Origin: Paraflavitalea sp. CAU 1676
GTDB lineage: Bacteria; Bacteroidota; Bacteroidia; Chitinophagales; Chitinophagaceae
Length of the DNA stretch: 64,000 nt
Assembly: GCF_029223285.1 (NCBI RefSeq)
Contig: NZ_JARHUJ010000005.1
Coordinates: 248,001-312,000, forward strand
Direction: 5' to 3'
Positions 1 to 15,625 of the stretch are shown here, in pieces (position 1 is the first letter of the stretch; each line of letters opens with the position of its first letter). The position numbers and the translations under genes were made by a program. The notes below the pieces were generated by a model that was not told the DNA's origin, did not search any database, and saw only the letters and a list, made by a program, of their open reading frames with translations.

Positions 1-1007
1 AGTTCGATTATGAACTGGTGATCGTGACCAACCAGGATGGCTTGGGCACGGCGGCATTTCCGGAAGATACTTTCTGGCCGCTGCACAACTTGGTGATGAA
101 GAGTCTGGAAGGAGAGGGCATTCATTTCAGCGCCACATATATTGACCGGAGTTTTCCCAAAGACAATGCGCCTACCCGTAAGCCCGGTACCGGTATGCTT
201 ACGCAATACCTCAATAATCCGGCTTATGATATCGCCAACTCTTTCGTGATCGGCGACCGTATTACCGATGTACAATTGGCCAAGAACATGGGCTGCAAAG
301 CCATCTGGTTGAACAATGATGCCACGTTGGGTTCCGGAGAGATCAAAGACAAGGTGGCCGAGCTGCAGCCTGTTATTGCTCTGGAAACAACCCTCTGGAG
401 CGATATCTACAAGTTCCTGAAACTGGGCCTGCGCCAGGTAATACACGAACGCAATACCAATGAAACGCAGATCAAGATCGAGCTCAACGTAGATGGCAGC
501 GGAAGGGCGCAGATCGTGACCGGACTGGGTTTCTTCGATCATATGCTGGATCAGATAGCCCGTCATGGTAAAATGGATCTCACCATCCGTTCAAACGGCG
601 ACCTGCACATCGATGAACACCATACCATTGAAGATACCGGCATTGCGTTGGGCGAAGCCTTTGCGCTGGCATTGGCCGATAAGCGGGGCATGGAGCGTTA
701 TGGATTTGCGTTGCCCATGGATGAGGCGGATGCGAAAGTACTGATCGACTTCGGCGGGCGCAACTGGATCGTATGGAATACAGAGTTCAAACGCGAATAT
801 GTGGGCGATATGCCAACCGAGATGTTCTTCCATTTCTTCAAGTCATTCTCCGATGCGGCGAAATGCAACCTAAACATAGAATGCCATGGCGATAATGAGC
901 ATCACAAGATAGAAGCGATCTTCAAGGCCTTTGCAAAAGCCATTAAGATGGCGGTGAAGCGCGATCCGCTCAGCAATTACCTGCCCAGTACAAAGGGGGT
1001 GTTGTAA
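1..1007 (+). CDS. hisB: Bifunctional histidinol-phosphatase / imidazoleglycerol-phosphate dehydratase HisB (5'-truncated by window)
   Basis: Catalyses two histidine-pathway steps: dehydration of imidazoleglycerol phosphate and dephosphorylation of histidinol phosphate. The gene is open at the left edge; codons run in frame from base 3. The visible part starts inside the HAD-type phosphatase domain (VTNQDGLGT, then [14 protein letters not shown]), followed by the dehydratase domain from about ERNTNETQ, with both metal-binding motifs, HHTIEDTG and NEHHKIEA, intact. The N-terminal DxD nucleophile motif lies outside the window. It would normally be followed by hisH, but here the transcription unit ends at a hairpin and hisHAFI lie about 9 kb away behind trpA. 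Identity is secure. Confidence 0.97.
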
Positions 1008-2490: not shown

Positions 2491-2625
2491 GTAAGGTGTG
2501 TTTAGGTGTATAGATGCAGTATCCGGGTAATTTACATAACGCTGATACCAGTTTATTCTGCGGTGATAGTCTATCGATCTTGTATTTTTTTTGGAATAAT
2601 CGATTTGCTACCGCATATTTGCAAT

Positions 2626-2688
2626 ATGGTACTGAACAAACAAAATAATCAGTGGTGGTGGCATACAAACTCTATCCGGGGCTTGTAA
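2626..2688 (+). CDS. trpL: trp operon leader peptide
   Basis: A 20-codon ORF reading MVLNKQNNQWWWHTNSIRGL. Trp is codons 10-12, three consecutive TGG at 2653-2661. It ends 106 nt before trpE and just upstream of a terminator hairpin, exactly as expected for a ribosome-stalling leader peptide. The last codons (Arg-Gly-Leu) contain the CGGGGC element that can pair with the left arm of the terminator. Too short for ordinary gene callers. Three Trp codons in a 20-residue ORF at this position are very unlikely by chance. Confidence 0.88.
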   Translation: MVLNKQNNQWWWHTNSIRGL

Positions 2689-2722
2689 CGCTGCTATTGT
2701 TGTTTATGACACTATATTCAGG

Positions 2723-2749
2723 GCCCCGATGTACAATCGGGGCTTTTTT
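2723..2749 (+). terminator. Intrinsic terminator of the trp attenuator
   Basis: An 8-bp perfect stem (2723-2730 with 2736-2743), a 5-nt loop (GTACA) and six T residues at 2744-2749. It lies between the leader peptide stop and the trpE start, so it acts ahead of the operon rather than behind a gene. Confidence 0.88.
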
Positions 2750-2794
2750 ATTTTATTCTTTATCAATCATTAATTTCTTTTCGAGGGACCAGGC

Positions 2795-4213
2795 ATGAAA
2801 AAAATAGCTATTCAGACGAACTGTAAAAAAATGCTGGCCGATGTGTACACTCCTGTTGGTATCTACCTGCGTGTGCGGGATCGATTCAGGGATACCGTGC
2901 TGCTGGAAAGCACCGATCACCATGCGGCCGATAACAGTTATTCCTTCATTTGTATCAATGCCATCGCGGGTATGGAGATCACTTCCACCCGTAGCATCGA
3001 ATTCAAGTGGCCTGGCGAAAAACCCGAAAAGATAGCCGTGAACAATGTACAGGAAGTGCCGCAATTGCTGTGGAACTTCATGCAGCGCTTTGAAGTAAGC
3101 GGCGCCTCCACCAAGGAAAGCCGTTTTGCCCAGGGCCTGTACGGCTACACTACTTTCGATGCCGTTCAGTTCTTCGATACCATCGGGTTGAAATCGGGCG
3201 CCACGACGCCGGATATTCCTCTGATGCGCTATCGCCTGTACCAATACGTGATCGTTATCAATCATTACAAAGACGAGCTGTTCATTTGTGAGAATGTGGT
3301 CAATGGGCTCGATAGCGAACTGTCGGTGGTAGAATCCCTGATCCGTAGCAAGGACGTTCCGGTCTATCCCTTTAAGCCATTGGGCGAGGAGATCTCGAAT
3401 ATGACCGATGAAGCTTACCGCGACATGGTGACCAAAGGTATCCAGAGCTGCTTCCGGGGCGATGTGTTCCAGATCGTATTGAGCCGTCGCTTCCAGCAAT
3501 CCTTCCGGGGTGATGAGTTCAATGTATATCGCGCGCTTCGCAGCATCAACCCTTCTCCTTATCTCTTCTTCTTCGATTACGGCGATTATAAACTACTCGG
3601 CTCTTCTCCCGAATCACAGATACTTATTCAACAGGGCAGAGCGGTGGTACACCCCATTGCAGGCACCTTCAAACGTACCGGCGATGATGAGACCGATAAG
3701 CTGGAAGCCGACCGTTTGCTGAAAGATGCCAAAGAGAACGCTGAACACGTGATGCTGGTTGACCTGGCACGCAATGACCTCAGCCGAGTTTGTGATGAGG
3801 TGGTCGTAGAGCATTACCGCGAAGTACAATATTACAGTCACGTGATCCACCTGGTGAGTGAAGTGACGGGAAAAGTGCGGCCCAACGCCAATCCTTTTGA
3901 ACTGATGGCGAAGACCTTCCCGGCTGGTACGCTTAGTGGTGCGCCTAAGTTCAGGGCGATGGAGCTCATCGATTCGTATGAGCCCACTACCCGCAGCTAT
4001 TACGGAGGTGCTATTGGCTTTATGGGCTTCGATGGAACCTGTGTGCACGCGATCATGATCCGCACCTTCCTGAGCCGGCAGAACACACTGTTTTACCAGG
4101 CAGGTGCAGGCGTGGTAGCTGCCAGCAAACCCGAAAGCGAATTGCAGGAAGTAAATAACAAACTGGGAGCTTTAAAGAAAGCGATCGTTTTTGCGGAAGA
4201 GATCTCGAAGTAA
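2795..4213 (+). CDS. trpE: Anthranilate synthase component I
   Basis: Converts chorismate and ammonia (from TrpG) to anthranilate, the committed step of tryptophan synthesis. The 472-residue length is normal. It shows the N-terminal LLES motif (residues 36-39) of the Trp feedback site, then chorismate-binding core motifs: GSSPES, PIAGTFKRTGDD, DLARNDLSRV and FPAGTLSGAPK. The PIAGT and LSGAPK motifs separate it from aminodeoxychorismate synthase less well than context does, but trpG-D-C-F follow directly. The ATG at 2795 gives the family-typical N-terminus. It is first in the operon, under the attenuator. Confidence 0.97.
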   Translation: MKKIAIQTNCKKMLADVYTPVGIYLRVRDRFRDTVLLESTDHHAADNSYSFICINAIAGMEITSTRSIEFKWPGEKPEKIAVNNVQEVPQLLWNFMQRFEVSGASTKESRFAQGLYGYTTFDAVQFFDTIGLKSGATTPDIPLMRYRLYQYVIVINHYKDELFICENVVNGLDSELSVVESLIRSKDVPVYPFKPLGEEISNMTDEAYRDMVTKGIQSCFRGDVFQIVLSRRFQQSFRGDEFNVYRALRSINPSPYLFFFDYGDYKLLGSSPESQILIQQGRAVVHPIAGTFKRTGDDETDKLEADRLLKDAKENAEHVMLVDLARNDLSRVCDEVVVEHYREVQYYSHVIHLVSEVTGKVRPNANPFELMAKTFPAGTLSGAPKFRAMELIDSYEPTTRSYYGGAIGFMGFDGTCVHAIMIRTFLSRQNTLFYQAGAGVVAASKPESELQEVNNKLGALKKAIVFAEEISK

Positions 4214-4307
4214 TGGCTGTATACAACCCGCAGCAACGGATTAAATGAAAGAGGCAGCAGGAACAGGAGAGGAGCAGGCAGTACTAAACATTTAAAAAAC
4301 TCAAACA

Positions 4308-4880
4308 TTGGCCCGGATATTAGTTTTTGACAATTACGATTCTTTCACCTACAACCTGGTGCACCTGGTAGAAAAGATACTGCACCAGAAAGTAGAGGTG
4401 TTTCGCAATGACCAGATCCCTTTGGAGAAAGTAAAAGATTACGATAAGATCATTCTTTCACCCGGTCCGGGTATACCGGAAGAAGCCGGCTTGTTGCTGC
4501 CGCTCCTGAAAGAGTACGCAGCCACCAAATCCATCCTGGGTGTATGCCTTGGGCACCAGGCCATCGGCCAATCCTTTGGCGGCAAGCTGGTGAACCTGAG
4601 TACCGTGTACCATGGCGTAGCTACACCCTGCCAGATCATCGACGCCAAGGCGCCGTTGTTCAAAGACATGCCTGCTGAAATTGAAGTGGGCCGTTATCAC
4701 AGCTGGGTGATCAGCGAAGAAGGTTTCCCAAAAGAACTGGAGGTTACTGCGCGCGATGCCAACAATTTCATCATGGCGCTGCAGCATAAGCAATACGATG
4801 TACAGGGCGTGCAGTTCCATCCCGAAAGTGTATTGACCCCCATGGGCGAACAAATATTACGTAACTGGTTGAAAAACTAA
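4308..4880 (+). CDS. trpG: Anthranilate synthase component II (glutamine amidotransferase)
   Basis: A class I glutamine amidotransferase supplying ammonia to TrpE. The triad is visible: Cys80 in GVCLGHQ, His171 and Glu173 in VQFHPES. The SPGPGIPEEAG oxyanion-region motif is also present. It is 190 residues, a stand-alone subunit not fused to TrpD. The start is a TTG at 4308; no in-frame ATG lies at the conserved N-terminus (ARILVFDNYDSFTYNLV), so TTG is the best choice. Only 2 nt separate its stop from trpD. TrpG could also serve aminodeoxychorismate synthase, as in some bacteria (inference). Confidence 0.96.
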   Translation: MARILVFDNYDSFTYNLVHLVEKILHQKVEVFRNDQIPLEKVKDYDKIILSPGPGIPEEAGLLLPLLKEYAATKSILGVCLGHQAIGQSFGGKLVNLSTVYHGVATPCQIIDAKAPLFKDMPAEIEVGRYHSWVISEEGFPKELEVTARDANNFIMALQHKQYDVQGVQFHPESVLTPMGEQILRNWLKN

Positions 4881-4882
4881 GT

Positions 4883-5875
4883 ATGAAAAAGATACTACAA
4901 CTGTTGTTTGAACACAAGACGCTCAGCCGGGCCACTGCTAAAGAAGTGCTGGTGAATATCGGTAAGGGGATATACAACGAGCATGAAGTAACGGCCTTCA
5001 TGACCGTATACCTGATGCGCAGCATCACCATCGAAGAACTGCAGGGTTTTCAGGATGCCTTGCTCGAGTTGTGTGTGCCGGTCGATCTCAACGGACATGC
5101 TACCATCGATATCGTAGGTACCGGCGGCGATGGCAAGAATACGTTCAATATCTCTACCCTGGCCTGTTTTATCGTGGCTGGTACTGGTCAAAAGGTGTCC
5201 AAGCACGGCAACTACGGCGCTACTTCCATCAGCGGTGCATCGAATGTGATGGAACAGCTGGGTTATAAATTCAAGAACGATCCGGCACAACTGAAACGGG
5301 AAGTAGAGGAAGCAAACATATGTTTCTTACACGCGCCCCTGTTTCATCCCGCATTGAAAACGGTAGCCCCCATCCGTAAAAACCTGGGTGTGCGTACCTT
5401 CTTCAATATGCTGGGGCCAATGGTGAACCCCGCCGCCCCCGCCTTTCAACTGGTAGGTGTGTACAGCCTCGAGATGGCGCGCATCTACAACTACCTGTTG
5501 CAGCAAAACGACAAAGCCTTTACGATCATCCATGGTCTGGATGGTTACGATGAAATATCCCTTACCAATGATACCAAAGTGATCACCAATGCCGGTGAGC
5601 GGGTGATGACGCCCGAACAACTGGGCAAGCGCATGGTATCGGCAACTGATATATTGGGTGGCAATTCAGTAGAGGAGAGTGCCAAAATATTCCTGACGAT
5701 ACTGGATGGCAAAGGCAGCTGGGCACAAAATGCCGTGGTGCTGGCCAATGCCGCGATGGCACTGCACTGTACCGGTAACTTCAAGAAGTATGATGATGCC
5801 TATGCGGCGGCGGTCGATAGCCTGGAAAGCGGCAAGGCAAGGGCCGCATTGAGCAAACTGGTAGCTTTGCAATAA
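4883..5875 (+). CDS. trpD: Anthranilate phosphoribosyltransferase
   Basis: Transfers the phosphoribosyl group of PRPP to anthranilate. The PRPP-binding motif GTGGDGKNTFNIST is at residues 79-92, followed by KHGNYGATSISGASNVMEQLG, which is diagnostic of TrpD. The length of 330 residues is typical of monofunctional TrpD. It starts 2 nt after trpG, consistent with translational coupling of the pair. It is cytoplasmic. No anomalies were seen. Confidence 0.97.
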   Translation: MKKILQLLFEHKTLSRATAKEVLVNIGKGIYNEHEVTAFMTVYLMRSITIEELQGFQDALLELCVPVDLNGHATIDIVGTGGDGKNTFNISTLACFIVAGTGQKVSKHGNYGATSISGASNVMEQLGYKFKNDPAQLKREVEEANICFLHAPLFHPALKTVAPIRKNLGVRTFFNMLGPMVNPAAPAFQLVGVYSLEMARIYNYLLQQNDKAFTIIHGLDGYDEISLTNDTKVITNAGERVMTPEQLGKRMVSATDILGGNSVEESAKIFLTILDGKGSWAQNAVVLANAAMALHCTGNFKKYDDAYAAAVDSLESGKARAALSKLVALQ

Positions 5876-5922
5876 AATGCCGGCGCGTTGAGCCCCGGTT
5901 AATACATACAACACACGGATTC

Positions 5923-6702
5923 ATGAATATTCTGGACAAGATCATAGCGCACAAAAGAATAGAGGTAGCGGAAAGGAAGAAAGCCATGAGTACGGCCGAA
6001 CTGGAGAAGAGCCCTGCATTTACCCGCCGGGTATTGTCACTGAAAGAGTTTCTGTTGAATGATGAGAAGACGGGCATCATTGCTGAATTCAAGCGTAAGT
6101 CGCCCTCGAAGGGAGTGATCAATGGAAACGCCGATGTAGTGGAAGTAACCAGCGCTTACACAAAGTTTGGCGCATCGGGTTTGTCGGTGCTGACAGATAC
6201 CGAATTCTTTGGCGGCAGTACGGAAGACCTGATCAAGGCACGGGTGAACCAGATCCCCATCCTGAGAAAGGAGTTTATCATTGACGAATACCAGATCGTA
6301 GAAGCAAGGGCCATGGGAGCCGATGTGATATTGCTGATCGCAGCCTGCCTGACACCAGCTGACGTGAAGCGATTGGCTACTTTTGCCCAAAGCCTGCAAC
6401 TGGAAGTATTGCTCGAACTGCACGATGAAGAAGAGTTGGGCCATATTTGCGATGAAACGGAGCTGGTAGGTATCAATAACCGCAACCTCAAGACCTTTGT
6501 GGTGGATATTGAAAGAAGCCTGGCTATGGCGCAACGCATCCCCACCGGGAAAGTGAAAGTGGCCGAAAGCGGGATCTCTTCGGTAGAGAACATCCGGCTG
6601 TTCCGCGACAACGGTTTCCGGGGTTTCCTGATCGGGGAGAATTTTATGAAAGAACCTAACCCCGCCAAGGCATTTGAGCAGTTTGTGCAGTCGATGTACT
6701 AA
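5923..6702 (+). CDS. trpC: Indole-3-glycerol phosphate synthase
   Basis: Closes the indole ring from carboxyphenylamino-deoxyribulose phosphate. It is a (beta/alpha)8 barrel of 259 residues with the family motifs IIAEFKRKSPSKG (residues 52-64), LRKEFIID with the catalytic Lys, LVGINNRNLKTF, VAESGI and GFLIGENFM near the C-terminus. It is monofunctional, not fused to TrpF. A 47-nt spacer precedes it and 68 nt follow before trpF, with no terminator hairpin visible in either. Confidence 0.97.
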   Translation: MNILDKIIAHKRIEVAERKKAMSTAELEKSPAFTRRVLSLKEFLLNDEKTGIIAEFKRKSPSKGVINGNADVVEVTSAYTKFGASGLSVLTDTEFFGGSTEDLIKARVNQIPILRKEFIIDEYQIVEARAMGADVILLIAACLTPADVKRLATFAQSLQLEVLLELHDEEELGHICDETELVGINNRNLKTFVVDIERSLAMAQRIPTGKVKVAESGISSVENIRLFRDNGFRGFLIGENFMKEPNPAKAFEQFVQSMY

Positions 6703-6770
6703 ATGATGGAACACCGCATGCAGACGCGGTTGTTTGCCGATTAACACTAACACTTAAAATCGAATGACCC

Positions 6771-7403
6771 ATGAGAGTAAAAGTCTGCGGTATGACGCAA
6801 CCCGACCAGGTAGATCAGCTGGCTGGTTTGGGAGCAACGTTTGCCGGCTTTATTTTTTATCCTAAGAGTCCGCGGTATGTGTTCAAGCACATGACGATTA
6901 CACAGATCCGCAAGGTGAACAACATCAATAAAGTAGGGGTGTTTGTCAACTCGTCGATCGAGGAAGTACTGCACCTGGTAGATGAATGCCGCCTGCACAT
7001 GGTGCAGCTGCATGGCGATGAATCGCCGAAGTTCTGTGAAAAGATCGCCGACTATGTTTCGGTGGTCAAAGCCTTCAGATTGAGCGACAACGATAGTGTA
7101 GACTGGATGATCCGCCCTTATATGGATGTATGCGATATGTTCATGTTCGACACCATGGGAGCCGGCTATGGCGGCACCGGCAAGAAATTCGATTGGAGCG
7201 TGTTGAAGAACAGTTCCATCGGCAAACCCTTCTTCCTCAGCGGCGGTATTGAGCCAGGCGATGAAGCAGAGTTGAAAGCCTTTGAACAACAACCTGTAGC
7301 CAAAGCCTTATTTGCCATCGATATCAACAGCAAGTTCGAAGTAAGTCCCGGTGTCAAGGACATGGAAAAGCTGCGGCCTTTTATCGAACACATGAAGCAG
7401 TAA
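6771..7403 (+). CDS. trpF: Phosphoribosylanthranilate isomerase
   Basis: Amadori isomerisation of phosphoribosylanthranilate. The family start KVCGMT carries the catalytic Cys6, and the general acid Asp127 sits in MFDTMGAGYGGTGKKFDW. VGVFVNSS and MVQLHGDESP are also present, and a C-terminal SPGVKD segment closes the phosphate site. It is 210 residues and monofunctional. It lies fifth in the operon. Its mechanistic relative HisA lies in the same transcription unit, four kilobases downstream. Confidence 0.97.
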   Translation: MRVKVCGMTQPDQVDQLAGLGATFAGFIFYPKSPRYVFKHMTITQIRKVNNINKVGVFVNSSIEEVLHLVDECRLHMVQLHGDESPKFCEKIADYVSVVKAFRLSDNDSVDWMIRPYMDVCDMFMFDTMGAGYGGTGKKFDWSVLKNSSIGKPFFLSGGIEPGDEAELKAFEQQPVAKALFAIDINSKFEVSPGVKDMEKLRPFIEHMKQ

Positions 7404-7428
7404 TAAGAACCGGGCAACAAAATAAATT

Positions 7429-7947
7429 ATGATCAGCATTCGGATAGCGGAGGAAACAGACCTCCCGGAAATATTGACGATCTACAATGACATTATTGTA
7501 AACACCACAGCCGTGTATGATTACAACGCCCATACGCCGGCCATGCGCAAGCAGTGGTGGGATACCAAAGTGCAGCAGGGCTTCCCTGTTTTTGTAGCCG
7601 TGGAAGATGGAAAAGTAGTAGGATTTAGTTCGATCGGTCCCTTCAGGGCCTGGGCGGCCTACAAATATTCAGTAGAGAACTCGATATATGTGGCGGCCGA
7701 TCAGCGTGGTAAAGGAATTGGCAAGCTGCTGATGCCACCACTCATCGAAGCAGCCCGCCAACTGAATATGCATACCATCCTGGCCGGCATCGATGCCAGC
7801 AATGACGCGAGTGTTAAACTGCATGAAAGTTTCGGATTTAAAGAAGTGGCGCTGTTCAGGGAAGTGGGATACAAGTTTGGCAAGTGGCTCGACCTGAAAT
7901 TCCTCCAGCTGGTATTGGAAACACCGGCAAACCCCATCGAACAGTAA
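7429..7947 (+). CDS. GNAT acetyltransferase (phosphinothricin acetyltransferase/YncA-like) inside the trp operon
   Basis: A 172-residue GCN5-type acetyltransferase of the PAT/YncA subgroup. It has the N-terminal IRIAEETDLPEILTIYNDII, the acetyl-CoA loop ADQRGKGIGKLLM, and a C-terminal ASNDASVKLHESFGF segment in which the ligand-binding Asn and Ser are conserved. Relatives acetylate phosphinothricin, methionine sulfoximine or amino-acid analogues. It starts 25 nt after trpF and is followed by trpB on the same strand, so it is a true operon member. A role in tryptophan physiology is unproven; detoxification of an amino compound is the family default. Confidence 0.85.
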   Translation: MISIRIAEETDLPEILTIYNDIIVNTTAVYDYNAHTPAMRKQWWDTKVQQGFPVFVAVEDGKVVGFSSIGPFRAWAAYKYSVENSIYVAADQRGKGIGKLLMPPLIEAARQLNMHTILAGIDASNDASVKLHESFGFKEVALFREVGYKFGKWLDLKFLQLVLETPANPIEQ

Positions 7948-8049
7948 CCGACGCATATTTGATAACGATAGCTGTGTTTCGACGTTGCAGCCAGGGTGAT
8001 CAGAAGCCCATTGTAACGACCAGGCGCAGGAACAATAAATAGTTGAATC

Positions 8050-9276
8050 ATGATCAATCGCAAAATGCCCCTGGCCCAATATAAGGGCACGTATCAGCAG
8101 CCCAATATATTCGGGTACTATGGCAATTTCGGTGGTGCTTATATTCCCGAAATGCTGCACCGCAATGTGGAAGAGTTAAAGAACCGATATATACAGATCA
8201 TGTATGAGGAGTCTTTCCAGAAAGAGTTCCATGCACTGCTGAAAGATTATGTCGGGCGTCCTACGCCCTTGTACCTCGCCAAGAGGCTCAGTGCTCAATA
8301 CAATACGAAGATCTACCTCAAGCGCGAGGACCTGTGTCATACGGGCGCCCATAAGATCAACAATACCATTGGACAGATACTGCTGGCCGAAAAGCTGGGT
8401 AAGAAGCGGATCATCGCCGAAACCGGCGCCGGACAACATGGTGTTGCCACCGCCACCGTTTGTGCATTGAAGGGCATTCAGTGTATCGTGTACATGGGTG
8501 AAAAAGACATCGAACGCCAGGCGCCCAACGTGGCACGCATGAAGATGCTGGGGGCGACGGTGATCCCTGCCACCAGTGGCAGCAAAACCTTGAAGGATGC
8601 TACCAACGAAGCGATCCGCGACTGGATCAACAATCCCGAAGATACCCATTACATCATTGGCAGTGTGGTAGGTCCGCATCCTTACCCCGATATGGTAGCC
8701 CGCTTTCAAAGCGTGATCAGTGAAGAGATCCGCAAGCAATTGAAGGAAGAGACTGGCAGTGAATTTCCTGCGTACGTGCTGGCCTGTGTGGGTGGCGGCA
8801 GTAATGCAGCCGGCGCTTTTTACCATTTTCTCGAAGAGTTTTCCGTGAATCTCGTTGCCATCGAAGCGGCAGGTCATGGTGTACATAGCGGCCTTAGCGC
8901 TGCCACTACCCAATTGGGCAAACCCGGTGTGTTGCATGGCAGCAAAAGCCTGGTGATGCAAACAGCCGACGGACAGGTGGTAGAGCCGCACAGTATTTCT
9001 GCGGGGCTCGATTATCCGGGTATCGGACCGTTGCATGCGCATTTGTATGAAACCGGTCGTGCTACCTTCTTAAGTGCTACCGATGAAGAAGCCCTTGATG
9101 CTGCCTTCAACCTGGCCAGGATGGAAGGGATCATTCCGGCGCTGGAATCGGCCCATGCCTTATCGGCTTTGAAACAATTATCCTTCAAGCCATCCGACGT
9201 AGTGGTGCTTTGCCTCTCGGGCCGCGGCGACAAGGACCTGGCCACCTATATGAAGGCCATGGAGGAGCGCGGTTAA
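8050..9276 (+). CDS. trpB: Tryptophan synthase beta chain
   Basis: A PLP enzyme condensing indole with serine. It shows the Schiff-base Lys102 in HTGAHKINN, the catalytic Glu124 in [14 protein letters not shown], the PLP phosphate loop GGGSNAAG, and CLSGRGDKD near the C-terminus. At 408 residues it is the canonical TrpB1 type expected to complex with TrpA. The first ATG (8050) adds a few residues ahead of the conserved start; ATG at 8065 is an alternative. Forty nt separate it from trpA. Confidence 0.97.
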
Positions 9277-9315
9277 ACCAATTTAAAGACAACAACAAGT
9301 ATACAAGCATCTATC

Positions 9316-10101
9316 ATGAGCAGGATACAGGACCTATTCAACCGGAAAAAAGATCATGTGCTCAATATCTACTGTACAGCAGGTTATCCGAAGCTAAACA
9401 GTACCCTGGAGGTAATGCGGGCCTTGCAGAACAATGGCGCCGATCTCATCGAGCTTGGAATGCCTTACAGCGACCCGCTGGCGGATGGGCCGGTGATCCA
9501 GGCCAGCAGCACCGTTGCACTGGCCAATGGCATGACGATCCAGACCTTATTCGAACAATTAAAGGAAATGCGCAGCAGCGCAGGCGAGGAGCCCATCCGC
9601 GTGCCGGTGATACTGATGGGATACATGAATCCCGTATTGCAATACGGCTTTGAGAAGTTCTGTGCCGATGCGGCAGCCGCCGGCGTCGACGGACTGATAT
9701 TGCCCGACCTGCCCGAATACGAGTTTGAGACAGAATATGGTGCGGTCATAAAGAAGTACGGACTTGATTTTATCTTCCTCGTAACCCCCGAAACTTCGGT
9801 AGAGCGCGTCAAGCGCCTAGATGCATTGAGCACGGGTTTTCTATACGCCGTATCTTCTTCTTCCACAACGGGTAAGGATAAGGATATGGGAGATGTGAGT
9901 GCTTACCTGCAAAAGCTGCAGGACCTGAAACTGAAGAACTCCGTACTCGTAGGGTTTGGTATTAAAGACAAGGCCAGTTTCGAAGCCGCCTGTAAACATG
10001 CCCAGGGTGCTATCATCGGAACAGCTTTTATCAAAGCGCTCGATGGGCAGGAGGACGTAAAGGGTACTGTACAACAATTTTTGAAAAAGGTGTTACAATA
10101 A
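9316..10101 (+). CDS. trpA: Tryptophan synthase alpha chain
   Basis: Cleaves indole-3-glycerol phosphate to indole, which is channelled to TrpB. The catalytic pair is visible: Glu46 (LIELGMPYSDPLADGP) and Asp57 in the same motif. MGYMNPVLQYG, DGLILPDLPEYE and AVSSSSTTG of the phosphate site follow. It is 261 residues. It ends the trp set, but hisH begins only 5 nt after its stop, with no room for a terminator or promoter. Confidence 0.97.
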   Translation: MSRIQDLFNRKKDHVLNIYCTAGYPKLNSTLEVMRALQNNGADLIELGMPYSDPLADGPVIQASSTVALANGMTIQTLFEQLKEMRSSAGEEPIRVPVILMGYMNPVLQYGFEKFCADAAAAGVDGLILPDLPEYEFETEYGAVIKKYGLDFIFLVTPETSVERVKRLDALSTGFLYAVSSSSTTGKDKDMGDVSAYLQKLQDLKLKNSVLVGFGIKDKASFEAACKHAQGAIIGTAFIKALDGQEDVKGTVQQFLKKVLQ

Positions 10102-10106
10102 TACGT

Positions 10107-10700
10107 ATGAGTTTAGTGATCGTTAAATACAATGCGGGCAATATCCAATCTGTATTGTATGCGTTGGAAAGGATCGGTGTGGAGGCTGTGGTAACGGATG
10201 ACCATGAGCAGATCCGCAACGCGGGCAAAGTCATTTTTCCCGGAGTAGGGGAGGCCAGCAGTGCCATGCGCTACCTCAAAGAGCGCGGTCTCGATGAGGT
10301 GATCAGGCAATTGGAGCAGCCCGTGCTGGGCATCTGCCTGGGTATGCAGTTGATGTGTGCTTACAGTGAGGAGAACGATACAACATGCCTGGGCATCTTT
10401 CCGGAACACGTAAAGCAGTTCAGGCCCCAGGCTGGCAGCGCACTCAAAGTGCCCCAGATAGGATGGAACTCGATCTACAACCTGAAGACGGACCTCACAA
10501 AAGACGTGGCGGAGAACAGCTACTGCTATTTTGTGCATGGGTTTTATGCGGCGCTCGGTGAACATACCATCGCTACCACCGATTATGTGCAGCCTTACAG
10601 CGCCGGCCTGCACAAAGACAATTTCTATGGACTGCAGTTTCACCCCGAGAAAAGTGCCAAGGTGGGTGAGCAATTATTAAAAAACTTTCTGAGCCTGTAA
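10107..10700 (+). CDS. hisH: Imidazole glycerol phosphate synthase, glutaminase subunit
   Basis: The glutaminase half of IGP synthase, feeding ammonia to HisF. The triad is Cys77 in GICLGMQLM with His179 and Glu181 in LQFHPEKS. The N-terminal YNAGNIQSV and PGVGEASSAM motifs are HisH-specific and separate it from TrpG. It is 197 residues. It starts 5 nt after trpA and stops 1 nt before the next gene, so it is embedded in a continuous trp-his transcription unit. Confidence 0.97.
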   Translation: MSLVIVKYNAGNIQSVLYALERIGVEAVVTDDHEQIRNAGKVIFPGVGEASSAMRYLKERGLDEVIRQLEQPVLGICLGMQLMCAYSEENDTTCLGIFPEHVKQFRPQAGSALKVPQIGWNSIYNLKTDLTKDVAENSYCYFVHGFYAALGEHTIATTDYVQPYSAGLHKDNFYGLQFHPEKSAKVGEQLLKNFLSL

Positions 10701-10701
10701 T

Positions 10702-11826
10702 ATGGAGATCAAAAATGTCCCTTTGCCCGATGTGTGGCATATGCGCCAAGCAGTGATGTATCCCAGCGAGTCGATCGACTTCGTGAAGCTCGATCTCGAT
10801 GAGCATGGCATGCATTGGGGCGTGTATGAAAAGAGCGAACTGGTATCGGTAATATCGGTGTTCGTTGAGGGGAAGCAGGTGCAATTCCGCAAGTTTGCTA
10901 CCAGCGTGCATCATCAGGGAAAAGGTTATGGGTCGACCCTGTTGCAGTATGTGATCGACTGGGCCAGGCATCATGGCATGCACTCCATGTGGTGCAACGC
11001 GCGCCTGAATGCCACATCCATCTACAAGAAATTTGGTATGCAGGCTACCGGCGCCACCTGGCACAAGTATGGCCTCGAATTCATTAAAATGGAAAAACAG
11101 TTACAGCGAACCATGCAGATCATCCCTGCCATCGATATTATTGACGGAAAATGTGTACGCCTTACCCAGGGTGATTACGAACGAAAGAAAATATACAATG
11201 AGCATCCGCTCGAAGTAGCGCTCGAATTCCAGGATGCCGGTTTAAAAAGGTTGCACCTGGTTGACCTCGACGGTGCCAAGGCCGGTGCAGTAAAGAACTG
11301 GAAAGTGCTGGAAACCATCGCGGCAAAAACCAGTATGGTCATTGATTTTGGTGGCGGCATCAAGACCGACAAGGACGTGAACATTGTTTTCAACTCCGGT
11401 GCCGCTTTGGCAACGGTGGGTAGCATTGCTGTCAAGAACGAACAGGAGTTCGTAAAGTGGCTGCTGACCTATGGGGCCGATAAGTTCCTGCTGGGCGCCG
11501 ATGTGAAAGACGAAAAGATCGCCGTAGCCGGCTGGCTCGAAACCACCGATGTATGGATCTATGATTTCATTCAGAAATATATCGGGCATGGCGTGCAGCA
11601 GCTATTCTGCACCGACGTGAGCAAAGACGGTTTATTGCAGGGACCTTCTATCGATCTCTACAAGAACATCATTACCAAATTCCCCGACCTGCATTTCATA
11701 GCCAGCGGCGGCGTCAGCAATATGGACGATGTATTGGAGTTGAAAGCGATCGGCTGCAGTGGCGTCATCATTGGCAAAGCGATCTATGAAGGCCGTATCA
11801 CGATCAAGGATCTGGCTACATTATAA
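10702..11826 (+). CDS. hisA: GNAT acetyltransferase-HisA fusion (ProFAR isomerase)
   Basis: One uninterrupted 374-codon frame encodes two domains. Residues 1 to about 130 are a GCN5-type acetyltransferase with the acetyl-CoA loop HHQGKGYGSTLL (residues 70-81). From Met138 follows a complete HisA barrel: IIPAIDIIDGKCVRL (first catalytic Asp145), VDLDGA, DFGGGIK, CTDVSKDG (second Asp305) and ASGGVSN. The linker is only about 7 residues (KQLQRT). HisA might also be made alone from the internal ATG at 11113. HisA isomerises the aminotimidazole ribotide ProFAR. Fusion to a GNAT domain is not a standard HisA architecture. Confidence 0.93.
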   Translation: MEIKNVPLPDVWHMRQAVMYPSESIDFVKLDLDEHGMHWGVYEKSELVSVISVFVEGKQVQFRKFATSVHHQGKGYGSTLLQYVIDWARHHGMHSMWCNARLNATSIYKKFGMQATGATWHKYGLEFIKMEKQLQRTMQIIPAIDIIDGKCVRLTQGDYERKKIYNEHPLEVALEFQDAGLKRLHLVDLDGAKAGAVKNWKVLETIAAKTSMVIDFGGGIKTDKDVNIVFNSGAALATVGSIAVKNEQEFVKWLLTYGADKFLLGADVKDEKIAVAGWLETTDVWIYDFIQKYIGHGVQQLFCTDVSKDGLLQGPSIDLYKNIITKFPDLHFIASGGVSNMDDVLELKAIGCSGVIIGKAIYEGRITIKDLATL

Positions 11827-11844
11827 GACCATAAAACGAATAAG

Positions 11845-12606
11845 GTGTTAACAAAGCGTATTATCCCCTGCCTCGATATCAAGGACGGTCGTACCGTGAA
11901 GGGAACCAATTTTGTGAACTTAAGAGATGCCGGTGATCCCGTGGAGTTGGGAGCATTGTATGCGCAGCAGGGTGCGGATGAGCTGGTGTTTCTCGATATC
12001 ACGGCCACCAACGAGCGTCGTAAGACGCTGAGCGAACTGGTGAACCGCATTTCGCACCATATCAATATTCCCTTTACTGTGGGCGGTGGCATCAGCAGCG
12101 TGGAAGACGTGCAGGTGTTGTTGCAGAACGGAGCCGACAAGATATCGGTGAACACGGCAGCCTTTAAACGTCCGGAACTGATCGGCGAGCTGGCCAAAGA
12201 GTTTGGAAGCCAATGCGTGGTACTGGCCATCGATACCCGCCTGGAAGCCGACGGGGAGTGGTATGTGTACCTTAATGGCGGTCGCGTAAAGACCGAAGCG
12301 AAATGCTTCGATTGGGCCAGGCAGGGCGTGGAGCTCGGCGCTGGGGAGATTCTGCTTACCTCCATGAACCATGATGGTACCAAACAAGGCTTTGCGCTCG
12401 ATATTACCCGCAGGCTGGCAGAAGCCCTGCCGGTGCCGGTGATCGCCAGTGGCGGCGGTGGCACCATGGAGCATTTTGTGGATGTATTTGGCCAGGGCAA
12501 AGCCGACGCTGCATTGGCCGCCAGCATCTTCCATTTTAAGGAGATCAGTATTCCGGAATTAAAGGGATATTTGCAGGGCAAACAAATAGCCATCAGGCCT
12601 GCATGA
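11845..12606 (+). CDS. hisF: Imidazole glycerol phosphate synthase, cyclase subunit
   Basis: The cyclase/lyase half of IGP synthase. The catalytic pair is Asp11 ([11 protein letters not shown]) and Asp130 (VVLAIDTR). [16 protein letters not shown] and [10 protein letters not shown] phosphate-site motifs are present. It has 253 residues. The start is GTG at 11845, 18 nt after hisA; no ATG is available at the conserved N-terminus. Its TGA stop overlaps the ATG of a 53-codon gene by 4 nt. Confidence 0.97.
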
Positions 12607-12764
12607 TCCTCATCGAACTCATAGTGGCTCTTTACTTGTTTTTTTGCATGAAAAATAAACAAGCCGACCGCGAACGCATCCGACGTGCCCGCCTTCTGGA
12701 AAAGCAGGAGGAATTGATGGAATCACTAAAGGCCAGGAAAGCCGATAAAGGAAACGAACAATGA
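12603..12764 (+). CDS. 53-residue single-pass membrane microprotein between hisF and hisIE
   Basis: A short ORF whose ATG overlaps the hisF stop (ATGA, 12603-12606) and whose TGA overlaps the hisIE start (ATGA, 12761-12764). The product has an N-terminal membrane helix ([14 protein letters not shown]) followed by a charged, Arg/Glu/Lys-rich helix (about residues 17-47) with coiled-coil character. The double 4-nt overlap indicates translational coupling with both neighbours, strong evidence that it is translated. No family is recognised. It could tether His enzymes to the membrane or simply be a coupling element; both are speculation. Confidence 0.75.
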
Positions 12765-13363
12765 TGAAAGTAGATTATAAGAAATATGCCGACGGACTCG
12801 TACCTGCCATTGTGCAGGACTTCAAGACCCATAAAGTTTTGATGCTGGGTTTCATGAATGAAGAGGCGGTTAAAAAAACTATGTCCGAGGGCAAGGTTAC
12901 TTTTTTTAGCCGCAGCAAGCAACGCCTGTGGACGAAAGGCGAGGAGAGTGGCAACCACCTGCTGGTAAAGGAAATACTGTCCGATTGCGACGACGACACC
13001 ATTCTCATTAAAGCACAGCCACTGGGGCCTACCTGCCACACGGGGGCTGATACCTGCTGGAGCGAACGCAACCATTCGGAAGATTTTCTTTACTACCTGG
13101 AAGATATCATCGAACTGCGTAAGAAGAGCAGTGATGAGAAATCATACGTGCGTTCCCTCTTTGGCAAAGGGATCAACAAGATTGCCCAGAAAGTAGGGGA
13201 GGAAGCCGTGGAAACCGTGATCGAGGCTAAGGACAACAACGACGAACTGTTCCTGAACGAAGCGGCCGATCTCCTGTTCCATTATTTGATTTTACTTAAC
13301 GCAAAAGGTCATAATTTACAGTCGGTTGTAAATATCCTACAGCAAAGACATTCAAATAAGTAG
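12761..13363 (+). CDS. hisIE: Bifunctional phosphoribosyl-AMP cyclohydrolase / phosphoribosyl-ATP pyrophosphatase
   Basis: Catalyses the second and third steps of histidine synthesis. The N-terminal HisI domain (about 1-105) has the metal-binding set DCDDDTILIK (Cys76) and GPTCHTGADTCW (Cys92, Cys99). The C-terminal HisE domain has KVGEEAVETVIEAK and NEAADLLFHYLILL, the MazG-like metal site. It is 200 residues, normal for the fused form. ATG at 12761 overlaps the upstream microprotein by 4 nt. It completes the distal his cluster. Confidence 0.96.
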   Translation: MMKVDYKKYADGLVPAIVQDFKTHKVLMLGFMNEEAVKKTMSEGKVTFFSRSKQRLWTKGEESGNHLLVKEILSDCDDDTILIKAQPLGPTCHTGADTCWSERNHSEDFLYYLEDIIELRKKSSDEKSYVRSLFGKGINKIAQKVGEEAVETVIEAKDNNDELFLNEAADLLFHYLILLNAKGHNLQSVVNILQQRHSNK

Positions 13364-13369
13364 TTCTCT

Positions 13370-14455
13370 ATGAAGCAGTTACTGGTACTGATAGCATTAT
13401 TGCCCTTGGGCTTACTGGCGCAAACCGGGTTTGTGATCAAAGGAAAAGTGACGGGGCTGCCCGAAGCTTCGAAAGTAACGCTTACCGATGTCAATAACCC
13501 CACGGATACTTTGTCGCGCGGCAAGGTCGTTCATGGCGGTTTCGAACTGAAAGGAACTATCAAAGAAGCTAACCTCTATCAGTTGAACTTCGATGGCGTT
13601 CAAAAAAAGGCCATGCTGTTCATCGGTAACGACCAGGTAACTGTAGAAGGAAATATAGAGCAGGTGCAGCAGCTGGACATCAAAGGCTCATCCATTCACA
13701 ATGATTTTGTGGCCTTCCAGAATACCTTCAATCCGCTTTTCCGTAAGCTTACAGAAATGAACCAGCAATTGTATGCAAAGCCCAATGTACAGCCTGGTGA
13801 TTCGATCATGGTGGCCTATATGGCCCATGTAAATTCCATCAAGGCTACGTTGGAACAATTCGTGACCGAGCGAAAGACATCGCCGGTGGCTCCTTTCGTG
13901 CTGGTGGTTACCAGCGAGCTGGAACAGGACATCTCCGTGCTGGAAAAAAACTACAACCTGTTGGCGGAAACCGGAAAGGAGGGCTTCTACGGAAAGATCT
14001 TGAAACAACGCATCGACGATAATAAGATTGGTGCCATCGGTTCGGATGCGATGGATTTTACACAAGCCGACACAACCGGCAAGCCGGTTACGCTGGCCTC
14101 CTTCCGTGGCAAATATGTATTGATCGATTTTTGGGCCAGCTGGTGCCGCCCGTGCCGGGTGGAGAACCCCAACGTGGTCAATGCTTTCAATAAGTTCAAG
14201 GATAAAAACTTCACCGTGCTGGGCGTTTCGCTCGACCGCGAAAAGCAACCTTGGTTGCAGGCTATCAAGGACGATAACCTTACCTGGACGCATGTCAGCG
14301 ACCTCAAGTTCTGGAGCAATGAAGTAGCACAGATGTATCGCGTGCAAGGCATACCGCAAAACTTCCTCATCGATCCCAATGGCAAGATCATCGGTAAGAA
14401 CCTGCGTGGCGAAGGCCTGCAAGCGAAGCTGTGTGAGCTCCTGGGCTGCAATTAA
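13370..14455 (+). CDS. Exported TlpA-like thiol:disulfide oxidoreductase with DUF4369-type N-terminus
   Basis: A 361-residue protein with a signal peptide (residues 1-17, ending LLAQ). An N-terminal beta-rich region resembles DUF4369 (about 20-110), and a C-terminal thioredoxin/AhpC-TSA domain has the redox motif WCRPC (Cys259, Cys262) in DFWASWCRPC. It is expected in the periplasm or surface-anchored, acting on disulfides. It starts 6 nt after hisIE, so it is probably the last gene of the trp-his unit, although its function has no evident link to amino-acid synthesis. The family is common and highly paralogous in this phylum. Confidence 0.88.
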   Translation: MKQLLVLIALLPLGLLAQTGFVIKGKVTGLPEASKVTLTDVNNPTDTLSRGKVVHGGFELKGTIKEANLYQLNFDGVQKKAMLFIGNDQVTVEGNIEQVQQLDIKGSSIHNDFVAFQNTFNPLFRKLTEMNQQLYAKPNVQPGDSIMVAYMAHVNSIKATLEQFVTERKTSPVAPFVLVVTSELEQDISVLEKNYNLLAETGKEGFYGKILKQRIDDNKIGAIGSDAMDFTQADTTGKPVTLASFRGKYVLIDFWASWCRPCRVENPNVVNAFNKFKDKNFTVLGVSLDREKQPWLQAIKDDNLTWTHVSDLKFWSNEVAQMYRVQGIPQNFLIDPNGKIIGKNLRGEGLQAKLCELLGCN

Positions 14456-14465
14456 AAGATACAAA

Positions 14466-14499
14466 CCTTGCCCGGAGGCGCTAGGCCCGCCAGGCAAGG
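14466..14499. repeat. GC-rich interrupted palindrome at the end of the trp-his operon
   Basis: CCTTGCC (14466-14472) pairs with GGCAAGG (14493-14499) and an inner GGCG/CGCC pair continues the stem. There is no T-run on either side, so it is not a classic terminator. It lies 11 nt after the TlpA gene stop. It could be a dispersed palindromic repeat or an mRNA 3'-end stabiliser. Confidence 0.5.
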
Positions 14500-14512
14500 C
14501 GATCCTTCTCTG

Positions 14513-15625
14513 TTAGTTCACGTCTTTACCTTCCTGCAGCAGCAGGAGCATTCTCTGTACATTATCTTTATTGACTTTATCAGGCGCCTGCGGCAACGCT
14601 TTCTGCGCATACTCTGCGGCTTTCTTATAATTGGCCAGGGCCGAGTACCCCCGCATCATACCCATATTGGTCGTAAATACATTGGGCGTTTTATCGTAAT
14701 TCAATTTAAAGGCATCGAAAGCCTCTTTGTACTTCTTCTGTTGTAATAACTGGCGTGCATAGTTGTGTATCTGTGGAGCAGTACCCAAAGGCAACGCCTC
14801 TTTCATCAGGGCATCAGCTTCGGCCTGCCGGTTGAGCTTCGAAAGTATCTGTGCTTTGGTCGAGAGTGTATTGAAATTGCTGGTGCCCACGAACGGCCCG
14901 CTGATCGCCTGATCGGCCCAGGCGAGGGCTTCTTTCAGGTTAACGTTGTTGACTACACAATAAGCGGCGGCCTGGTTCCAGTTTTGCCATCCGCTCGAGA
15001 AACTCTTTTCGCTGCGCAATTCATTGCGGAAGGAAGCAAGTTGCAGGTTGATGTGGTCTGTTTCCACACGGAACGGAAACCGTAGTTTTTCCCACTCCAG
15101 GGCTATTGTTGCCGATGAGTCGGTTTGATCGAGAAACTCGAACCTGAGCCATTCTACGCTCTTATCCAGCGATACTGGTTGAATGGGGATGCGGAGTGCA
15201 TCTTCTTTATCATCGTAAAAGAAACTGCCCCAGGAGGTATGGTTCTTTGATAATATCAGGGTGGAGCTGAGTGAATCATACGCAATGAACAATCCATACT
15301 GGCCGGCCGGGAGTGGCTTGCCCTGTATCATCACCGGGGTAGAAAATTCAATGACGGTATTCTCGTTGGCCCCTGCCCGCCAGGGAGCGTGCTTACTGGT
15401 ACCAAAGCCAAGGTCGGCATATCCCTTGTGCACGAGCTGTCCCCAGATCTTGCCTTCGCGGCCTTTTACACCTGGCCGGCAGTATTCAATAGAGACGTCG
15501 GTAACGCCTATGTTTTCGCTGATGGATGCTTTCTTGTTACCTCCTTCGGGGGCGGTTGTAAGTTGCGCCTGTCCGTTAATATGAAGGCATAACAGCAAGG
15601 TTGCTGTGAGTAGTTGGCATTTCAT
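14513..15625 (-). CDS. Exported DUF2911 domain protein with TPR-like C-terminus
   Basis: A 370-residue protein with a Sec signal peptide (cleavage near GQA-Q, residue 20). The DUF2911 domain (about residues 30-175) carries the hallmark APWRAGANENTVIEF. The remainder is helical with tetratricopeptide-like repeats (residues about 235-360). DUF2911 proteins are abundant in Bacteroidota and functionally undefined. The gene is convergent with the trp-his unit. A TAGCTTTA sequence upstream (reverse strand, 15654-15647) is one base off the phylum's -7 box. Confidence 0.85.
   Translation of the reverse strand: MKCQLLTATLLLCLHINGQAQLTTAPEGGNKKASISENIGVTDVSIEYCRPGVKGREGKIWGQLVHKGYADLGFGTSKHAPWRAGANENTVIEFSTPVMIQGKPLPAGQYGLFIAYDSLSSTLILSKNHTSWGSFFYDDKEDALRIPIQPVSLDKSVEWLRFEFLDQTDSSATIALEWEKLRFPFRVETDHINLQLASFRNELRSEKSFSSGWQNWNQAAAYCVVNNVNLKEALAWADQAISGPFVGTSNFNTLSTKAQILSKLNRQAEADALMKEALPLGTAPQIHNYARQLLQQKKYKEAFDAFKLNYDKTPNVFTTNMGMMRGYSALANYKKAAEYAQKALPQAPDKVNKDNVQRMLLLLQEGKDVN

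Follow-up and report, generated by a model that had tools for sequence, protein, structure and literature searches.

A probable Trp attenuator with a predicted near-leaderless start ahead of a combined trp-his gene cluster in Paraflavitalea and other Chitinophagaceae

The trpE gene of Paraflavitalea sp. CAU 1676 is preceded by a short open reading frame with tandem Trp codons, the end of which can pair with the terminator that follows, and this region very probably acts as a ribosome-mediated Trp transcription attenuator, in which stalling of the leader ribosome would report on the supply of Trp. Most likely it switches on a combined trp-his cluster under Trp shortage. The parts of the attenuator are conserved among relatives, its alternative pairings co-vary, and the His codon directly behind the Trp run is associated with linkage of his genes to the trp genes. 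Additional sensing of His by the leader, which would then respond to His as well, is a tentative proposal that we place slightly below an even chance. The principle of attenuation is classical; what sets this version apart is a message that looks nearly leaderless and the possibility that His is sensed too. All positions refer to the window, the whole stretch of 64,000 nucleotides that was analysed.

Parts of the attenuator ahead of trpE

The leader open reading frame, MVLNKQNNQWWWHTNSIRGL followed by the stop codon TAA (2626-2688), is read directly from the forward strand of the window, as are the features described below. It has 20 codons, starting with ATG at 2626 and ending with TAA at 2686-2688, and contains three tandem Trp codons, TGG TGG TGG (2653-2661), followed by the His codon CAT (2662-2664), which is proposed as a second sensor codon on the grounds of conservation, linkage tests and model folds. 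Near the end of the frame lies switch segment 2 (2677-2683), made up of CGGGGC at 2677-2682 plus one base, which can form an antiterminator with 2722-2728. An intrinsic terminator hairpin made up of segments 3 and 4 (2720-2746) was obtained by folding and by a terminator scan; it holds GCCCCG at 2723-2728 and a second CGGGGC at 2738-2743, with a run of six T at 2744-2749, and the CGGGGC of the leader rivals the second copy for the 5' arm of the terminator. A further hairpin, 1:2 (2650-2699), pairs 2650-2660 with 2689-2699 according to the fold and, with modest effect, to a partner-swap test described below. Its 5' arm includes the Trp codons and its 3' arm lies directly 3' of the leader stop codon. 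A sequence-only reading that preceded this analysis had listed the frame, the TGG run, the CGGGGC and GCCCCG copies and the T run, and had all of their coordinates right. Hairpin 1:2, the promoter, the His codon beside the Trp run and the downstream his genes were added to that list here.

The fold of 2610-2752 had a z-score of -4.37, and none of 200 shuffled sequences was equally stable. A terminator scan of 2480-2800 returned one site, the attenuator terminator, against a mean of 0.3 in shuffles. The two genes directly upstream (1487-2014 and 2011-2490) are on the opposite strand, so the terminator belongs to neither. A tandem repeat search found no repeats.

A combined trp-his cluster downstream

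The first gene under control would be trpE (2795-4213, forward strand; Pfam PF00425 and PF04715), the product of which is 93% identical to TrpE of Paraflavitalea pollutisoli. It is followed on the same strand by trpG-trpD-trpC-trpF-(GNAT)-trpB-trpA (4308-10101), in which trpG, trpA and the GNAT gene were assigned by Pfam and trpD, trpC, trpF and trpB were named from sequence, with a gene order that agrees in relatives. The cluster continues past trpA with hisH, GNAT-hisA, hisF and hisIE (10107-13363, forward strand), the start of hisH lying 5 nt behind trpA. A terminator scan of 2600-14600 on both strands gave 10 sites compared with 12.3 in shuffles, and besides the attenuator the forward-strand sites before hisIE were three weak ones, all intragenic. 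The controlled unit probably comprises trpEGDCF-BA and then hisH-A-F-IE, which would be transcribed together.

The remaining his genes of this 8.84 Mb genome, hisG, hisD and hisC (named from sequence) and hisB (Pfam), lie upstream on the same contig. The his genes are thus split, with hisG, D, C and B upstream, where a His leader precedes hisG, and hisH-A-F-IE following the trp genes and their Trp leader. The hisG leader, MNIFTHIHHHHHTYPSR, which is built much like the Trp leader and in that respect favours the attenuator, is His-rich and has a terminator and a similar promoter spacing (L093 4584-4637, upstream of the window); Rfam gave no match in this region at E up to 1. The hisB frame combines a HAD-type part with IGPD and starts outside the window (window 18-1007; L093 9841-11007). 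A GNAT acetyltransferase domain precedes hisA in one open reading frame (10702-11826), and a second GNAT gene is the one located among the trp genes (7429-7947).

Proposed mode of action

The E. coli trpL leader has tandem Trp codons and three hairpins, 1:2, 2:3 and 3:4, and a ribosome at its stop codon masks segment 2. These features are common to the leader described here and the mode of action would be alike, whereas the present locus differs in its near-leaderless predicted start, its Bacteroidota-type promoter and the trp-his cluster downstream. Judging from the promoter, transcription would begin at the leader ATG or shortly ahead of it. With ample Trp the ribosome would reach the stop codon at 2686 and cover the switch at 2677-2683, and the terminator at 2720-2746 would form. 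A stall at the Trp codons (2653-2661) would leave the switch free to pair with 2722-2728 while segment 4 is still to be transcribed, allowing readthrough to trpE. If the leader is left untranslated, hairpin 1:2 would hold the switch and the terminator would again form. Under His shortage a stall at the codon at 2662 would free the whole switch, and the terminator may open too.

Model folds were calculated for the RNA that is free of the ribosome and already transcribed, with the ribosome edge assumed to lie 15 nt past the first nucleotide of the codon in the P site. Under this assumption segment 2 is free when the ribosome stalls at the Trp codons and masked when it sits at the stop codon. The core antiterminator pairs had a probability of 0.99 or more for A-site codons 9-13, which take in the Trp run and the His codon; at codon 14 (Thr) five of the six pairs were formed and from codon 15 none. 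In the model His is therefore the furthest codon where stalling would leave the whole switch free, an assignment that would shift with an error of one or two bases in the edge. With segment 4 transcribed, the terminator was always the more stable fold, which means that the choice made by the attenuator must be kinetic. The proposal of attenuation by ribosome stalling, made earlier from the classical model, gains support from the stall geometry in these folds, from the conserved Trp codons and from the co-varying pairings.

Predicted promoter and near-leaderless start

Upstream of the leader a predicted -33 element, TTTG (2590-2593), and a predicted -7 element, CATATTTG (2614-2621), are found on the forward strand, the latter with five of the six fixed bases of the consensus TAnnTTTG and the former recurring ahead of the leaders of relatives. 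The flavobacterial TAnnTTTG box is placed at -12 to -5 in a passage on promoters of Flavobacterium (PMC9723704). This position makes the A of the leader ATG (2626) the predicted +1. The Bacteroidota-type promoter is accordingly predicted to place the start at the leader ATG or 0-5 nt before it, and a near-leaderless message is likely by this sequence criterion.

In the second set of loci described below, a -7 box (TTTG or TTCG, the G lying 5-10 nt upstream of the start) was present in 141 of 154 leaders, with a mode of 8 nt, a count that is somewhat inflated as the choice of the leader start favours ATGs with such a box; the background was 1103 of 18100 ATGs with a box at this spacing. Among the leaders with a -7 element that were examined for it, 133 of 138 also had a -33 box, scored as TTG with its G 25-31 nt upstream of the -7 G. 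In another family (f3, inferred to be Sphingobacteriaceae-like) the same -7 spacing was seen in 26 of 26 counted leaders, chosen with the same preference for the start, and in f5, inferred to be Flavobacteriaceae, a box lay 5-10 nt before the start in just 11 of 29 leaders.

A competing -7 box, TCGATTTG (2600-2607), which would give a 5' UTR of 14 nt, was rejected, as its TTTG is not conserved in the close relatives L002, L083, L085 and L086. A sigma-70 scan gave one site, not above shuffles, and sigma-70 is not the promoter type of this phylum. The pattern TTTGN{3,9}ATGN{9,39}TGGTGG was unspecific in the genome itself, with 124 forward and 101 reverse matches.

Near-leaderless messages are a minority of the phylum in the literature examined: excerpts report about 3.7% of 5' UTRs shorter than 10 nt for Bacteroides thetaiotaomicron (PMC7366714) and 5.5% leaderless messages for Flavobacterium psychrophilum (PMC9723704). 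Bacteroidota are described as lacking classical Shine-Dalgarno sequences in the same excerpt on B. thetaiotaomicron (PMC7366714), and the near-leaderless start is a testable point on translation in a phylum so reported.

Conservation of the leader and co-variation of its pairings

Two sets of loci were compared, which overlap in species and for which counts are kept separate. The first set held 80 named trpE loci and five of the genus, 85 in total. The anchor was located in 83 of them, the exceptions being L079, in which the contig begins inside trpE, and L084, which was in reverse orientation and proved to have the leader too once turned. All 83 had a terminator hairpin and a duplex between leader and terminator arm of -8 kcal/mol or better, the best duplex being other than the GGGG one in a few loci such as L016, L018, L021 and L022. 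Six of the 83 (L058, L060, L067, L068, L069 and L071), all metagenome-derived records, had a single Trp codon beside His (NNGWH or NTGWH).

For the second set 98 genomes were drawn from the family, 72 of which had TrpE at an E-value of 1e-120 or better. It was composed of 71 one-per-genus loci, three of the genus, 80 chosen loci and the locus itself, 155 in total, the 80 being hand-chosen among the matches listed in a larger search, which hit 277 of 394 genomes. The leader finder requires a pair of nearby Trp codons or GGTTGGCA and places no demand on the terminator. A Trp-codon leader was found ahead of trpE in 154 of the 155 loci, the miss being L215. The Trp run had three codons in 146 leaders, two in six, four in one and one in one, lengths to be read with the demand of the finder for Trp codons in mind. 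A lack of conservation in relatives, of the TGG run or of the alternative pairings, had been named beforehand as grounds for refuting the attenuator reading; the run and the pairings are conserved. Translated-leader attenuation is extended to the majority of trpE loci sampled in an environmental family missed by the current Rfam model.

Asn at codon -3 before the Trp run occurred in most leaders (64 of 70 in the first set, 51 of 63 in the one-per-genus set), encoded by AAT and AAC 44 and 20 times in the first set, near background, and 44 and 7 times in the one-per-genus set; as these ratios differ between the sets, no claim is made on selection at the peptide level. Behind the run, Thr at +2 was encoded by ACA 47 times against ACT 4 times and Asn at +3 by AAC 50 times against AAT 0 times in the first set (42:5 and 45:2 in the one-per-genus set). 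Peptide-level selection on these two positions was considered and is unsupported, since the codons are nearly fixed.

Co-variation was analysed by a swap test, in which the duplex energy of each segment with its own partner was compared, free of register, with the energies for partners swapped between loci in 2000 permutations. This was preferred to pair counts in fixed columns because leaders that end in GVL are offset by a single base. From the 71 one-per-genus loci a regular expression recovered 69 leaders, dropping L204, with a single Trp codon, and L215; 64 of the 69 were kept, the terminator criteria leaving out L158, L180, L200, L210 and L214. In these 64 loci none of the permutations reached the energy of own partners for pairing 2:3 (-14.05 own, -11.91 swapped), 3:4 (-17.86 and -11.98) or 1:2 (-15.18 and -14.13), while a control, in which the Trp region was paired with the arm of the terminator, gave -8.93 and -8.92 and was reached in 828 of 2000. 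Since relatedness makes the sequences non-independent, the permutation count is no clean probability, although the control has equal relatedness. The own partner was better than the row median in 49 of 64 loci for 2:3, 62 for 3:4 and 37 for 1:2, the last close to the 34 of the control, which makes the effect for 1:2 weak. By sequence comparison, the mutually exclusive pairings thus appear to be kept by co-variation, clearly so for 2:3 and 3:4 and weakly for 1:2.

The letters of the switch vary by lineage yet remain complementary. Most loci have CGGGGC/GCCCCG, while AGAGGC/GCCTC occurs in L035 and L036 and TGTGTCG types in L044 and L052. More divergent switches were seen by eye in L213 (TGAATGATTGG/CCAGTCATTCA) and L218 (GAACAGCA/TGCTGTTC). 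Complementarity therefore persists while the letters turn over across lineages.

The His codon and linkage to his genes

Linkage was defined as hisH, hisA or hisF behind trpA on the same strand and could be judged in 125 of the 155 loci, 95 of which were linked and 30 unlinked. His stood directly after the Trp run in 93 of the 95 linked loci compared with 17 of the 30 unlinked ones, the two linked exceptions being L202 (WWWQH) and L206. When models were fitted to a tree of 124 TrpE sequences, from which a single short TrpE had been dropped, one in which gain and loss of His depend on linkage did better than an independent one (LR 19.1, p 7e-5; repeats 18.7 and 19.1). We propose that the leader has two inputs, the Trp run and the flanking His sensing both amino acids where his genes lie behind the trp genes, on a near-leaderless message, and that His decays where the his genes are unlinked; on balance this falls a little short of an even chance. 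If His does act as a sensor, the family would offer a readable case of operon content shaping leader codons, and a natural experiment in the co-evolution of gene order and regulation.

The strongest alternative, for and against which the evidence is about evenly poised, is that the leader is a pure Trp attenuator, that CAU simply aids hairpin 1:2, and that the association with his linkage stems from common descent or from a general decay of leaders in unlinked lineages. Several observations fit such a leader. The His codon of the leaders is CAT in 125 cases and CAC in 10, as opposed to 73:27 in trpE, an excess which suggests that RNA structure may hold the codon, and the adjoining codons for Thr +2 and Asn +3 are almost invariant in nucleotide sequence. 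Asn +3 is itself associated with linkage (LR 10.2, p 0.006). His is kept in over half of the unlinked loci and in 5 of 26 leaders of f3 (30 loci less L345, L346, L347 and L351, in which the finder saw no Trp pair), a family in which hisF was on another contig or more than 1 Mb away in all 34 genomes with trpE and hisF found. One His codon after the run is also little for sensing, and the five of six pairs left by a stall at Thr codon 14 in the model fold speak against a position reserved for His.

Against a pure Trp attenuator, His +1 had the strongest association with linkage among eight traits (LR 18.7, rising to 23.2 when +2 is included; uncorrected for multiple traits). Thr +2 (LR 4.4), Asn -3 (1.8), Gln -1 (5.5) and the switch (4.8) all had tree-based p-values of at least 0.065, Thr +2 giving p 0.003 in a Fisher test that found no support on the tree. 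A His codon at -1 occurred in 21 of the 94 linked loci but in none of the 30 unlinked ones (LR 9.0, p 0.011). Parsimony on all 124 tips assigned seven losses of His to unlinked and two to linked lineages, with one gain, in a linked lineage. The association persisted when the three most divergent TrpE were removed (His absent from 2 of the 94 linked loci and from 10 of the 27 unlinked ones; LR 15.2, p 5e-4). It was equal in a second reduced set free of lineages with divergent switches (0 of 88 and 6 of 23; LR 15.2, p 5e-4), in which the 0 of 88 is partly by construction, as the 13 hand-picked tips dropped include L202 and L206. The fitted loss rates of His were unstable, the linked rate exceeding the unlinked one in the first reduced set.

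Remaining alternatives and relation to known systems

A constitutive terminator with a chance open reading frame, trpE being transcribed from its own promoter downstream of 2749, is very improbable: the start site at this locus is a predicted one, which would suit such an arrangement, but the leader recurs in nearly every locus of the second set with co-varying pairings, the promoter elements recur before the leader, and the gap from the T run to trpE is only 45 nt. A switch that binds RNA or protein (T-box, TRAP-type or riboswitch) in place of a translated leader is more improbable still, since, structured as the 5' region ahead of the trp genes is, the Trp run is conserved in frame with a start and a stop codon, no Rfam family reached its gathering score in the window and no convincing one was found at E up to 10 in 2400-2900.

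The permissive Rfam scan of 2400-2900 gave ten matches, which were rejected, all under cut-off with a best E-value of 0.023; nine overlap the terminator and one is on the opposite strand at 2430-2456. The sequence-only reading had suggested that the leader might belong to the Bacteroid-trp RNA (RF01692), a family published by Weinberg 2010 (PMC2864571) and mentioned for F. psychrophilum in a passage of PMC6414381. A search of the leader region with this model, up to an E-value of 10, was negative: RF01692 is absent from the matches in 2400-2900. It was over its gathering cut-off of 49 bits in 0 of 147 Chitinophagaceae genomes under stricter filters, by which weak matches are lost, and its best match in the genome itself, on another contig, scored 24.8 bits. 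Five of six weak RF01692 matches in Chitinophagaceae are nevertheless leaders of the kind described here (two of them judged by eye, on the other strand), which makes a common origin with Bacteroid-trp likely; the suggestion that Bacteroid-trp covers the class is thus correct in part, the model missing this locus and having no match over cut-off in the family.

Within the phylum RF01692 was over cut-off in 11 of 148 genomes, all 11 in f5. Of 15 matches fetched, the seven on the plus strand have a WWW leader frame, and in the eight on the minus strand visual inspection shows the Trp run on the opposite strand. Bacteroid-trp and the present leader are alike in their position ahead of trpE, the WWW leader and, as judged by eye, a terminator opposed by an element at the leader stop. 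Bacteroid-trp differs in switch letters of the CGTCGTGA type, and few of the f5 leaders counted have a close -7 box. In 20 fetched operons of f5 no match to hisH, hisA, hisF or hisIE was found behind trpA within the fetched stretch, and His never followed the Trp run directly, one leader having Lys-His.

In Sinorhizobium meliloti, an excerpt on trpL/rnTrpL describes a transcript that starts from the leader ATG and an attenuator before trpE (PMC7298713). That system belongs to another phylum, and the excerpt mentions neither his genes nor a His codon (PMC7298713). For F. psychrophilum, attenuation by leader peptides before amino-acid operons has already been proposed in a passage that names neither Chitinophagaceae nor the combination of Trp and His (PMC9723704). 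A literature search, which covered few subscription journals and does not prove absence, found nothing on Trp/His or His attenuation, and nothing that linked leaderless messages with Chitinophaga. The trp leaders of f3 (L322-L351) also have a -7 box near the start, and their terminators are of the CCCGACG or CCCGGC type.
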